Shown here piece by piece: positions 8,957-31,828 of a stretch of DNA of 36,953 bases; within the stretch, counting starts at the first letter, position 1, and every line of letters starts with the position of its first letter. The DNA comes from Paraglomus occultum. Taxonomy: Eukaryota > Glomeromycota > Glomeromycetes > Paraglomerales > Paraglomeraceae. Position numbers and translations under genes: made by a program. Under the pieces are notes generated by a model. It did no database searches and was not told where the DNA came from. It was given only the letters and a program-made list of their open reading frames with translations. Where the stretch lies: the NCBI GenBank assembly GCA_910592205.1, contig CAJVPJ010000184.1, forward strand, positions 1-36,953, given 5' to 3'.

Positions 8957-11900
8957 ATGACGACAATAAAAGCGATCGATAAATCCTCAGTACATCGCAT
9001 CTGTTCAGGTCAAGTTATTGTAGATCTGAGTACAACTATTAAGGAGCTTGTCGAGAATAGTTTGGACGCGCAGGCTACGTCCATAGGTAACACGTTTTAG
9101 CGTATGCTGTAATATGCGAATTCGTTTACTCATGTACTCTTACTCAACGCAAGCAGAAGTGAGGCTCAAGAATCACGGGCTCGAGCTCATAGAAGTTATC
9201 GATAATGGAATTGGCATACCAGAACAAAATTATGAATTTCTTGGTAAAGTATCATAACTAACGCGCGACATATATTTGAAGCAATAAAACGTTGCTAACT
9301 TTAGCTTGTTGAATGCATAGCTTTGAAACACCATACTTCAAAGTTGTCTTGTTTCGAAGATTTGACAGTTATCGAGTCATTCGGTTTTCGTGGAGAAGCT
9401 CTCAGCTCACTGAGCGCTTTATCAAAACTTACGGTTATCACCTCGACTGAAGAACAGGCGCCATCCGGCAGAAAACTTGAATATGACGCGAATGGTCGGC
9501 TTGCAAAGACAATTCCTACTGCACGCGAGGTGCATTTGTAGAACGATCCTTTAAACATTTGTTCATCGTTTTCTCGGAACTGTTATCATCAATGAGCTCT
9601 GATACAATCAACATTCCTTTGTCTAGCGCGGAACAACTGTCAGTGTACAAAGATTATTTGAGTCATTGCCTGTCAGACAGAAAGAGTTTAAGAGAAATGT
9701 CAAACGCGAGTTTGCAAAAGCTTTGACATTGTTGCAAGCTTATGGAATTATATCAGAAGGCGTGAAAATTACATGCACTAATCAGACAGGCAGAAGGTAT
9801 TTATTTCTGTATGTATTTAGATTCGTAGTATAAAAATCAATACTTACTCGCTGTTTTTATAGCGAGAGAACCACGATTCTTGCAACTAGCGGCAATAAAT
9901 CTATACGTGAAAATTTTGTAAATATATTTGGTGCCAAACAATTACCCCAAGTGATGGCTATAGACTTTCAGCTGAACATTGAATCAGAGAGATCGATGAT
10001 GGTTGATGCCACAGAATCCGATGACAATTCACGGTGAAGTAGATTACTTCGAAGTCTTCGTCACACTATAAATATACATCTAACGCCGTGTTTGTAGGAT
10101 AGAGACTGTTATTCAAGTGGTTGGCTATATCTCCAAGCCGATCCATGGATGTGGCCGAAATACTACTGATAGACAGTACTATTACATAAACGGACGTCCT
10201 TGTACATTACCAAAGGCATGTATAATTGGATTGCCAATAGAAGTTCTATTACGAGATTCTTACGATCATTTACCCGCTCCCATTAGATTTCCAAAGTCTT
10301 TAACGAAGTATACAAGACTTATAACTCCAATCAGTTGCCCTTTGTAATCGCGGATGTTCGTCTAGATAAATGTATTTGAAATGCGAGTCAATTGTTGTTC
10401 CATGTATTCTCGATGAACTTTGATTAACAAATATTTTTTATAATAGCAAGATATGATGTCAACGTGAGTCCAGACAAACGTACAATATATATTCATGATG
10501 AAAAGAAAGTTGTTGACGCCATGAAGGTTAAGATGATTATTTCTTTGTCTGACAGTCGTGCATTTGTCTTGCAAATTTTACTAATTAGTTATAATACGAA
10601 TATAGAATCAACTGATCCAGGTATTTGAGCCGTTTCGATCGACCTTCTCCGTTAACAGTAATTCAAGTCTTGTCTTTGACTCTGAAAATTCCAAATGCCA
10701 AAACCGTCAACCGTATGAGGATACGGTAGGATCACTTGCCAATAAGAGCGTCGATAGACAATTATCCAGATTGCCGAAAGACGACGCAGAAGTAGATTCT
10801 ACTACATCAGGGATATCCGAGATTGATCCTAAGGAAAAAAACCAGGTCACGCAAGTGGTGTCATCAAAAATCGCGTCCACCGAGAAATTAAGATCTGCGT
10901 GTATTACCGAGACGCCAAAGATATGTTTGCAAGTAAATCAAACTGCATCCGACAATGAATATTCACTGAAGCGCCAGAGAATCAACGTAGACATTGCAAG
11001 TGATGATATCGTGAAAAGGAACTCTAACTCTAGACCTGTGTTGAACCCAGCACTTGAGACGATTTCGATAGAGTACGAGCCAAACGAACCTGCAAACCGA
11101 ACTGAACTAAGTGTGCAATTTGACATTAACAAACTTAAAAATAGAAAGAAGAACAAAAAAGCTACACTGATACGAAAATTACCCGACAAAACTCACCTTG
11201 TCGATGCCGGACTCGACGCAGAAAGCAACGCAATAGCTGAACGTGAATTGAATAGAGTTATATCAAAGGAAGATTTCATTCGAATGAAGGTCGTGGGTCA
11301 ATTCAATCTTGGTTTCATTATAGTGAAGCTAGATAGTGTATCTGGAGGTGACTTGTTTATAGTTGATCAGCATGCTTCTGACGAGAAGTATAACTTTGAG
11401 ACTTTACAACGTCAGACGAGGCTGCATTCTCAACAGTTGATTAGGTTGGTGCTCGATTCTTATCACTCCCACAAAAAGTGAACACACTGTTGACTGAGTT
11501 CGTTGGGTATTTCTAGTCCTATGCAGCTGCAATTTACTGCCGCTGAGGAGTTAGTTGCGATTGAAAATATTGACGTTTTGAAAGCCAATGGATTTGAACT
11601 GCAAGTTGATGATAAAGCTCCACCAACAAGGAGATTGAAATTAGTAGCGCAACCGATAAGCAAGAACACCGTATTTGGCACTAAAGGTTATTTACGCTCA
11701 ATGTATTTTCTTTCCATGTTTTGGTAACTATGCGTATTACAGTGCTGACGTTTGTTATATAAAAGACTTGGAAGAGTTGATTTTTTTATTAGCTGAGCGG
11801 CCTGGTGAAATGGTTCACTGCTCGCAAGTACGCAATATGTTTGCATCTCGCGCATGTCGTAAATCTGTGATGATAGGAGACCCATTGAACAAGCGGCAAA

Positions 11901-19776: not shown

Positions 19777-21359
19777 TCACAATTCCATCCCAAGAAGCAC
19801 GTAGTTTTCTGTAGAGTGCCCCAACACGGAGGGCTTGACATGCTCAAACCCGATGTACAGGTATACGCGTAGTAATTCGACTGCAGATTAGATAATGTAA
19901 TGGAAGCAGAGTGTAGAAAAGCAAAGAGGAACATATGGAGGGAGTGACGTTAGTGACTTGTATTGCTTCTTGTATCCCGCATCGCCAAACAATACGTCCT
20001 ATATTAATTAACACCCAATAATCACCCACTTCATATTCAACTTCGAGCCTTACCTAAATCACATTTTTTCTCCAAGCAAACAATCAGGTAACGACAGTCA
20101 AAACACTCTTCAGCTAGTTCCATCATAGAAAGCAAGCTGTAAAATGCGAATAGTCCGGTTAGTTTGTGCAAACTATTTAGAAATTGAAAGTATAGTCACT
20201 TGTACAGAGCGTAAATGAATCATCCTGCAAGCCTTTCATCGTCACTACATTCCGTTTTGTCAATAGCTGTTTCAAACCTCGCTCATAACCCTCTAACTAT
20301 AACAGTCGACCATCTCTCCATAATTCATAACACAATTCAAAAGTTTGTCTACCTTTCACGTAAGCCTGCCTTCTCAAGACCGTTTCCTTTCAAAAAGAAC
20401 ATCTCGTTCAGGACAAACCCGTCCGAAATGTATTGATTTCCCATGAAGATCTGCACCGTTTGGTCAGGCTTTTTATCAGCAAAGACTTGGGCGCTAAAGG
20501 AGCTTTCTATTGGAGTCTGCGAGAGCGTTACGCAAGAGGGTGTACTCGAAGGCGTACTCGAAGGTGTACTCGAGGGTGTGCTTGAGGGTGTATTGGAGGG
20601 AGTATTGATAGGAGATGCTGAATAGAAGTCTGTGGCCAAGTTGGTATTTGTAGTATTGTTGCCCTTCGGGGCAAGTAAACCTCCTGAATTCTCCGTAATG
20701 CTGCCACCATCACGGGTCAGGAGGTTTGGTGTCATATTCCGGGTTGCCTCGAGAGTCATGTCCTGTAAGATTAAAGGCAACAAGCAAGGTGAACGACGTT
20801 TTGCATCAAGATTAGGTTGTAGAGCGAAGAAACGTATAAAAAAAAAAGGATGGAAAAGTGATTAGAAACTTACAGGAGCGCCACTCAGTCTTCTTACCCA
20901 CTGTAAAAGAAGATGATGCATATTAGACAGCCGTTTGTTGGTTGGATTACGTTATTAGGAAAATATAATGAAAGGTATAAAAAGTATGCATATAATTATG
21001 TAGACTTAAATTCTAACTCTTATAGAAAATATAATAGCAATGGGGGGAAAGTATGTATATAATTGGGTCGGTTTATATATGCATTATGCGTCGTTAAAGC
21101 CTCACTATAATTGTACAAACACTATCTTAAACTCTTCCCCTCGCTCTAGCCCCAACCTCAAATCCCAAACGCTTATCCTTCACGTACGGGTAGAGTAATA
21201 ATAGCATTCTCCACTGTTCGTAGTACTCTGGTGGGAATATTTGGTGCAGACAGCTCGAAATGGCTCACCACTATTAATGCCAGCAATACTATTGCTGTTA
21301 CTACTACTACTACTATTAAAATTACTACTAAAGACTTGTAACTGGATGGTGGTCGCCAT
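19777..21359 (-). CDS. Ornithine decarboxylase antizyme, expressed by +1 programmed ribosomal frameshifting
   Basis: Polyamine-feedback inhibitor that binds ornithine decarboxylase monomers, targets them for ubiquitin-independent proteasomal decay and limits polyamine uptake (family knowledge). Exons on the minus strand: 21188-21359, 20874-20900, 20353-20762, 20054-20136 and 19777-19880. ORF1 (66 codons, Ser/Asn-rich) ends TGG-CGC-TCC-TGA. A +1 shift at TCC continues as D-M-T-L in ORF2, giving 264 aa. The antizyme core is clear: FVLNEMFFLKGNG, LLSMMELAEE, YLIVCLEKK, LLRVYLYIGFEHVKP. Human antizyme 1 uses TGG-TGC-TCC-TGA in the same place and reads W-C-S-D. The intron at 20763-20873 falls between TCCT and GA, so the stop codon exists only after splicing. 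Intron 1 is unusually long (287 bp). A TPSS repeat lies between the shift site and the core. Translation is probably regulated by polyamines. Confidence 0.92.
20538..20606 (-). repeat. 12-bp minisatellite encoding (TPSS)n
   Basis: Five to six degenerate 12-bp units (plus strand GGTGTACTCGAA and variants) encode repeated Thr-Pro-Ser-Ser in antizyme ORF2, downstream of the shift site and ahead of the conserved domain. It is an in-frame, probably flexible linker. Confidence 0.9.
20762..20876 (-). promoter_or_regulatory. Antizyme +1 frameshift site (UCC-UGA), split by an intron
   Basis: In spliced mRNA the site reads UGG CGC UCC UGA C. Exon 2 supplies UCCU (ending at 20874), exon 3 supplies GAC (from 20762), and intron 3' and 5' borders are canonical (GTAAGT, TTACAG). 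The ORF1 frame meets UGA; the ORF2 frame continues GAC-AUG. The coordinates span the intron. I saw no obvious 3' pseudoknot, as far as hand reading allows. Confidence 0.9.
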
Positions 21360-22074
21360 TCGAGTATTTATCTCTGAGAATCAGGTTGTTTGGTAATGAA
21401 GAGAAGGCCAGTGGTTCGTATGTGTGACTTTCGCAAAAATTTTGCTTAGTTAGCGGATGTTGATTGTAACGACGACGAAAACTGGATAGTATAATGACAG
21501 GTTTGGGTTTGTTGTTTCTTTCTTCTTATAGCACAAAATAGCTAGCGTATTGGGTGGATGTCAGTTTTGTAGCTTGACAAGAATGTTGCAGTACTGAATG
21601 TGGCTGTAAGTTGGTTCGCTCTTCAAGCAGATAAAGTTGTGAGTGTGAAAAACGCACAAATGGGGAGGGGCTTTGATGTAGATGTTTGTTATATGGCAGT
21701 TATTGGCAGGGGATGATGTGATGTGTACCACGAGAATTATTTGTCATTATGTATGAAAATAATTAATCTCACTGTTAACGTTACTCCCGATCAGGCCAAG
21801 ATTAAGCTTAATACAGTTAACGGAATGTGGCACAAGCGTTCCGAAGTTCCAATTTTCCATGTTCTTGATGTTCGGAATTGGACGATAAGATGGATATAAA
21901 AAGTCGATGGTTGTCGATACTGGTTTGGCCAACCAGAAACAAGAAATGTATTTGAAGACTTTTCTTTGAAGCAGCTTAAGCTCGAGCTGTCAAAACACAG
22001 ATGATTGTTAACCGAGTGTTGTATTTCACTATGTACTATGAAAATACTTATCAGTCAGTTTGACTTTATTACTA
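21360..22074. other. Intergenic, upstream of antizyme
   Basis: Should contain the antizyme promoter and 5' leader. No other feature was recognised; the open stretch at 21747-21932 has no family similarity. Confidence 0.45.
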
Positions 22075-30302: not shown

Positions 30303-31828
30303 ATGTCATCAATCAATCCTGCAAACCCACCACGCCCTGCTTTGATTGCGACAGATAAAACGGGTTTTGCCTATACGACAACACGTATTCGATGGCCGGT
30401 AATAGTTACAAAAATAATCGATGCTTTGTTTCAAGTCTGTCATGCTTTAGATGATGACGAGAAACGGACAGAGGGGAAGGCCATTATATCATCTATTGGC
30501 GCTTTAAAGTATGGAATGGAAAGAGACAAGCCCCTTACGTGAGTTACTCTCTCGTTTAATTAGTCGCGGGGAAACCTATTAGGGGACGATTAATCATCTC
30601 TTCATTACATATTTTCTTTACTAGCCCAATAGCCGACGACTCGAATCCAGATATTGCCACATGGAACAATATCTACAACACCTATTTCTCGAGCTCTACC
30701 TGGTATACTGCACCGTGGCTCTTTACCGAATGCTATCTCTACCGACGCATTTATACCTACTTTGCTCGCTCGACCTACTGGAATACATATGATCCTTTCT
30801 GTCAACAAAAAGAAGCTGCATTCAAAGCTTCTCAAGTTGCGATGCTTGCTCTTGCCGAGAGAATCGACGAACTAATTTCTTCAGAGGGATTGCGTCTGGA
30901 TCACCGAATAGTCTTTCATGAATTAGTCCAGATATCTCTCTGGGGAAATGCGAGTGATTTGAGCTTGCTCTCTACTTTAGATCCGCGTGAATTGGGTAAA
31001 TTGCAGAGTACTGGAGCAGAGGAATTGGAAAAAATCGAGAAGAATATTTTACGGAATGATATAGATTTGTTTTGGCACAGAATTAAAGATTCGAAAGGAT
31101 CAAGAATAGATTTCGTGTTGGATAATGCCGGTGAGGAATTCGTTTGTTATCTATTTATACGAGTTTTTTTTTATCGAGTTTGTGAAATCGAAAGCGACTA
31201 ATTATTATGCCGAACTCGCTACTTGTCCAAAATATTTGCAGGCTTTGAACTTTACGCTGACTTGATATTTGCCGACTGGCTTATCCAATCAGGCTATGCA
31301 TCTTCAGTTCACTTTCACGCAAAGCCGATTCCTTGGTTCGTTTCTGACACCACACCCACAGACTTTTATAATCTTCTTTCTGCTCTTACATCGAACCTTC
31401 TCAACCAGCCTTCTCAGTCTCTTATCACTAAATTAGCCCAACGCTGGCAAGGATATGTAGACTCTAACATATGGATAGTAAAAGCGGACTATTTCTGGGT
31501 TTCGCCATATGCATATTGGCATTTACCAGAACAGAAAGAGTTGTTTGATGACATTAAGCAGGCAGCTAGTGTAGTGTTTAAAGGTGATTTAAATTTTAGA
31601 AAGTTGGTTTATGATTGCAAGTGGGATTTCACTACACCATTCGAGGAAGCAATAGGGCCGATGGCAACCGAAGAAGGTGTGCCATCTGTTGTAACATTGA
31701 GGACTTCTAAGGCAGATGTCATTGTCGGGCTACCAAAAGGGACAGCAGAGAGGCTATACGCTGTTGAGGATGATTGGCTATATTCTGGCAAGTATGCTAT
31801 CGTTGAATTTTCAAGAGGGACCAAGTGA
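30303..31828 (+). CDS. ARMT1-like damage-control metal-dependent phosphatase (DUF89)
   Basis: Cobalt/manganese-type phosphatase of the DUF89 family, known to hydrolyse damaged or excess sugar phosphates such as fructose-1-phosphate; human ARMT1 was also reported as a carboxyl methyltransferase. Exons 30303-30538, 30625-31130 and 31242-31828 give 442 aa, essentially the size of human ARMT1. The helical N-terminal part has WNNIYNTYFSSSTWYTAPWL and the YLYRRI segment. The catalytic core has DFVLDNAGFELYADL (metal ligands expected at D245 and N246), VHFHAKPIPWFVSDTT (D283), GDLNFRKL (substrate/phosphate loop) and LRTSKADVIVGL. All expected motifs are present, so the enzyme is probably active. Substrate preference cannot be read from sequence. 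Confidence 0.94.

Follow-up and report, generated by a model that had tools for sequence, protein, structure and literature searches.

How can a programmed +1 frameshift site operate in an antizyme gene when its two halves lie 111 nt apart in the DNA? The question is raised by a gene on the minus strand (21359 to 19777) of a Paraglomus occultum contig, which belongs to an assembly of 32.3 Mb in 1408 contigs and was analysed over its whole length of 36,953 nt (the window). Our best explanation is that the shift site of the only antizyme gene found in the genome is laid down in two pieces, TCCT and GAC, which are very probably joined by the constitutive splicing of a predicted microexon.

The gene was divided by conceptual splicing into five exons, and all four introns are of the GT-AG type. 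Its features are as follows:

21188 to 21359, minus strand: exon 1, with the start of ORF1 (ATG at 21359) and a putative end at a GT donor
20901 to 21187, minus strand: predicted intron 1, 287 nt, GTACGT...TTTTACAG
20874 to 20900, minus strand: predicted microexon 2, 27 nt, based on splice signals and a match to the OAZ1 5' element as given in the excerpted text of PMC11818727
20874 to 20877, minus strand: TCCT, the 5' part of the shift site, read from the sequence
20763 to 20873, minus strand: predicted intron 2, length 111 nt and divisible by 3, GTAAGT...TCTTACAG
20760 to 20762, minus strand: GAC, the 3' part of the shift site, which a shifted ribosome would read as its first ORF2 codon, read from the sequence
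20757 to 20759, minus strand: an AUG that shares the ORF2 frame and is a possible reinitiation start, read from the sequence
20677 to 20727, minus strand: stem-loop with two perfect 11-nt arms and an inner stem, obtained by folding
20353 to 20762, minus strand: exon 3, ORF2, 410 nt, by conceptual splicing
20137 to 20352, minus strand: intron 3, 216 nt, spanned by antizyme homology
20054 to 20136, minus strand: exon 4, antizyme domain, by conceptual splicing and homology
19881 to 20053, minus strand: intron 4, 173 nt, spanned by antizyme homology
19777 to 19880, minus strand: exon 5, end of the antizyme domain, with the stop codon TGA at 19779-19777, by conceptual splicing

Going upstream from 21359, the next ATG is found at 21747, beyond an in-frame TGA at 21383. 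An alternative donor of exon 1 at 21268 would leave the frame and the shift site unchanged and give an ORF1 of 39 codons. The candidate microexon (20900-20874, minus strand) reads TGGGTAAGAAGACTGAGTGGCGCTCCT (27 nt) and lies between TTTTACAG on its 5' side and GTAAGT on its 3' side; it carries the codons through TGG-CGC-TCC and also the T that opens the ORF1 stop codon. The sequence from 20762 begins GACATGACTCTC and is preceded on the minus strand by TCTTACAG, whose AG is the sole AG of intron 2 past position 5.

When 21359-21188, 20900-20874 and 20762-20353 were joined, ORF1 comprised 66 codons and ended with TGG CGC TCC TGA C. TCCT, GAC and the 27-nt candidate microexon were thus found where the original prediction had placed them, and its proposal that the ORF1 stop codon is split across an exon junction agrees with the predicted splice of TCCT to GAC. 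After conceptual splicing the layout is that of a +1 shift site, with two ORFs, the second in the +1 frame, and a shift-prone codon followed by UGA. A putative 5' stimulatory context is present beside the site, where 11 of 12 bases are identical to the OAZ1 element in the excerpted text of PMC11818727. Since the site is split by a predicted intron, the ORF1 stop codon probably exists only in spliced mRNA. The heptamer as such was also said to exist only there; this would hold for the in-frame site but not for the heptamer, because an unspliced TCCTGAC lies in exon 3 (20722-20716) out of the ORF1 codon phase, and only the in-frame site therefore needs splicing. The exon 3 copy was rejected as the true shift site, as a +1 shift there would read GAC-CCG and then stop at UGA.

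Skipping one base at the junction of exons 2 and 3 (the +1 shift) gives a conceptual product of 264 residues, of which residues 166-263 matched the PF02100 ODC_AZ profile (E 3.8e-10, 40.1 bits, cut-off 24.2), in support of the earlier identification of the gene as an antizyme. Antizyme-1 structures also matched the product, with an E of about 0.002. With the predicted splice, the open frame leads into the antizyme domain only by a +1 shift. Exon 3 alone, translated to its apparent stop, had no antizyme match; exons 4 and 5 were therefore assigned to the antizyme gene, and the homology thereby supports introns 3 and 4. A genome-wide profile search returned a single ODC_AZ match in one exon, which at 18.9 bits stayed under the cut-off because the search was run exon by exon. 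Ornithine decarboxylase is represented in the genome by one Orn_Arg_deC_N locus with two exon matches (best E 2.1e-45), so that an antizyme feedback loop has its target in the same genome. The chitin synthase N-terminal domain, present at two loci here against 0 of 14 control genomes, led us to take the genome for that of a fungus.

Homologues of the whole protein were absent among 7989 scored candidates, a list that was probably swamped by repeats in the query, and residues 163-264 had no homologue among 16 candidates. None of eight pattern-matching stretches in viral contigs encodes a relative. The 44 candidate stretches from genome contigs gave one match (L079), which was rejected as a cytochrome P450 fragment. 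Elsewhere in the window, on the plus strand, a MutL C-terminal dimerisation domain was seen in the ORF 10606-11478 (E 2.7e-6) and an ARMT1-like damage-control phosphatase domain in the ORF 30560-31198 (E 3.7e-32).

The chance expectation of the motif was estimated by Markov simulations of the 796-nt region (n = 20,000), in which the motif was counted spliced or unspliced. TCCTGAC occurred in 13.6% of the simulated regions and TGGNNNTCCTGA in 1.4%. The bare hexamer TCCTGA occurred in 34.6%, and the argument from it was dropped. The 12-mer TGG[CT]GCTCCTGA, a pattern written post hoc with the sequence in view, including its C-or-T choice, occurred in 0.015% (3/20,000). Since the bare hexamer is so common, it is the 12-base context that carries the case. 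For the 425 nt between exons 1 and 3, TGG[CT]GCTCCTGT was found in 1.5e-5 of the simulations (3/200,000). In the genome (32.3 Mb) TGG[CT]GCTCCTGTAAG occurs once, at the shift site, and a reversed control pattern occurs twice; the genome-wide count is thus unremarkable, and it is the place of the motif that is notable.

Splice-site strength was scored with a matrix built from 41 introns that were predicted in chaperonin, HSP70, actin-family and ODC genes of the same genome. From 76 exon matches 71 were entered, after L017, L047, L061, L068 and L073 had been excluded by hand (one overlapped another match, and the remaining four lacked a usable neighbour). These gave 54 neighbouring exon pairs, three of which were unused owing to distance or a profile gap; 46 of the 51 tested pairs had a candidate splice, and 41 of these introns were kept, the other five being dropped for a length mismatch of more than one residue. 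The choice of introns is influenced by the canonical matrix from which it started. By this measure donor 1, of exon 1, scored 2.4 and donor 2, at the shift site (CCT|GTAAGT), scored 4.0, with 4 and 7 of the 41 leave-one-out donors as low; the acceptors of introns 1 and 2 scored 4.4 and 4.7, with 11/41 and 12/41 as low. Donor 2 has a regular intronic side (GTAAGT) and is weak on its exonic side, where CCT stands in place of the usual AAG because it is dictated by the shift site. GT sites scoring at least as high as this donor make up 12.8% of the 4134 in the window. A second donor, TGG|GTAAGA, lies within the microexon (20896-20898, minus strand) and scored 5.7 against 4.0 for the donor used. 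The alternative donor at 21268 scored 4.5 against 2.4 for the modelled donor of exon 1. The summed score of the shift model was 15.5, or 17.6 with donor 21268, and among two-intron models in any frame 1036 of 45,698 reached at least 15.5, so the shift model was not at the top. Splice-site strength is not decisive and is no proof of the shift model.

Under the preferred model, removal of the predicted intron 2 would join TCCT to GAC and so assemble UCC-UGA-C. A ribosome would read 66 codons and, with UCC then occupying the P site and UGA the A site, would pause and either terminate or, at high polyamines, slip by +1 and continue from GAC. The slipped ribosome would yield an antizyme of 264 residues; this protein, a brake on polyamine synthesis, would bind ornithine decarboxylase and render it inactive. 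Polyamines would thus act at the ribosome, as with other antizymes, on an ordinary spliced shift site. We infer the way the exons are joined, the frameshift itself and its response to polyamines. In our view the intron is removed constitutively, and its position is more an oddity of structure than a switch. As a speculation, if exon-junction-dependent decay exists in this organism, ribosomes that stop after ORF1, ahead of introns 3 and 4, could make the mRNA less stable when polyamines are scarce.

Downstream of the site, the arms of the stem-loop lie at 20727-20717 and 20687-20677, and the structure starts 33 nt past the UGA. A 70-nt piece folds at -28.1 kcal/mol (shuffled mean -16.2, z -4.27; stability equalled by 0/200 shuffles), a stretch of 110 nt from exon 3 gave z -4.49 (0/200), and a 131-nt piece that includes the shift site gave z -3.03 (1/200). 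In a scan of the contig with 70-nt windows, 8 of 7378 folded equally well or better, two of them being the stem-loop itself, one per strand. Its role as a standard 3' stimulator is doubtful, because 33 nt is a long way for a stimulator at the entry channel, and it was therefore not named as one. The region of its 5' arm repeats CTCCTGAC of the assembled shift site, and the 3' arm could pair with either copy. Such pairing was calculated at -12.8 kcal/mol with the assembled shift site and -17.4 kcal/mol with the arm's own partner; the former may be a coincidence.

The model has to be weighed against two other ways of producing ORF2. Another splice could place an upstream exon and ORF2 in a single frame, with no shift and with UCC-UGA as a coincidence. 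The scores give some room for this, since 11 of 1579 two-intron no-shift models score at least as high as the shift model and the best of them, with a 21-nt exon at 21177-21157, reaches 17.8 against 15.5. With donor 21268, however, the shift model is level with the best no-shift models, and a single-frame splice leaves the 12-base antizyme context unexplained despite its rarity in the simulated regions; we consider such a splice very unlikely. One-intron no-shift models (n = 79) reached a maximum of 8.6, a sum over two sites that is not comparable with one over four. It is quite unlikely, too, that ORF2 is additionally made without frameshifting, either by reinitiation at UGA-C-AUG or through transcription that begins within intron 2. 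The AUG at 20759-20757 is in the ORF2 frame, one base past the ORF1 stop and with G at -3, and the ORF2 frame is open upstream to 20861, within intron 2. However, efficient reinitiation after an ORF of 66 codons is unusual in eukaryotes, both routes leave the shift context unexplained, and they may supplement frameshifting rather than take its place.

A different matter is whether regulated splicing of microexon 2 adds a second layer of control, which would be compatible with the best explanation. Skipping or retention would then remove UCC-UGA and alter antizyme output, in a manner either independent of polyamines or responsive to them. In this respect it is relevant that the entire 5' element and UCC-U sit in microexon 2, and that the donor in use, weak in its exonic part, faces the stronger competing donor at 20897. 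Conceptual skipping of exon 2 gave an ORF1 of 74 codons ending with CCG-UGA-U, retention of intron 2 gave 86 codons ending with UAA, and retention of intron 1 gave 59 codons ending at a UGA upstream of the shift site; in none of these forms was UCC-UGA met in frame. The expectation that exon 2 skipping or intron 2 retention would lose or replace the shift site is thus borne out at the conceptual level. As a +1 shift at CCG-UGA-U would also enter the ORF2 frame, loss of exon 2 may leave some frameshifting in place, at a lower level. Short exons and weak splice sites occur in constitutive splicing too, and regulated splicing of the microexon is considered unlikely. The stronger form, in which microexon 2 is a splicing-controlled recoding cassette whose inclusion decides whether the mRNA senses polyamines, appears equally improbable. 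If it were true, antizyme output would be set twice, by the nuclear choice of exon 2 and by the ribosomal frameshift. The 11-nt arm in exon 3, by pairing with its partner or with the assembled shift site, would then couple the two layers.

Constitutive joining of a split shift site remains the preferred reading. Outside the large antizyme surveys, the excerpted open-licence literature gave no account of an antizyme shift site interrupted by an intron. The split site is at most a variation on known antizyme frameshifting, and it may have been described earlier. Should the junction prove real, it would be splicing that produces a programmed frameshift site here. As the genome would then lack the in-frame site as a single piece, programs that look for frameshifts in unspliced DNA would overlook it, and annotation would be likely to get the gene model wrong. 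A real junction would also provide a test of whether alternative splicing toggles translational recoding in a conserved metabolic feedback loop, and would make a survey of fungal intron positions near shift sites worthwhile.

In human OAZ1 the shift site lies whole within one exon, whereas in the Paraglomus occultum gene it is split by the predicted intron. The 5' element of human OAZ1 is given as UGG-UGC-UCC-UGA in the excerpted text of PMC11818727; the two genes have in common UGG-NGC-UCC-UGA at the end of ORF1 and a +1 shift into an ORF2 with the ODC_AZ domain, and they differ in CGC here for UGC there and in the base after UGA, which is C here and U there. The same excerpt gives the yeast and fungal shift site as UUU-UGA-C and not UCC-UGA, and the absence of UUU-UGA-C from the P. 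occultum gene counts against our reading. According to the excerpted sections of PMC5009743, a pseudoknot lies 3 nt 3' of the shift site in many antizyme mRNAs, whereas the stem-loop here lies 33 nt downstream. The Ganoderma lucidum antizyme GlAZ, as described in part of PMC9604110, likewise has a short product of 66 residues and a GT-AG intron, but its shift sequence is TTTGA. The two-ORF layout and the +1 shift are common to the fungal antizymes in the excerpted sections of PMC5009743, where the shift sites are GCG-UGA-C in S. cerevisiae and CCG-UGA-C in K. waltii and the shift codon of Agaricomycotina is UUU; those sections make no mention of a split shift site for fungal antizymes. The K. 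waltii site given there resembles CCG-UGA-U, the end formed when exon 2 is skipped. With UCC as its P-site codon, the P. occultum site would thus combine an animal-like codon with the C after the stop that is seen in S. cerevisiae and K. waltii in the same excerpts.
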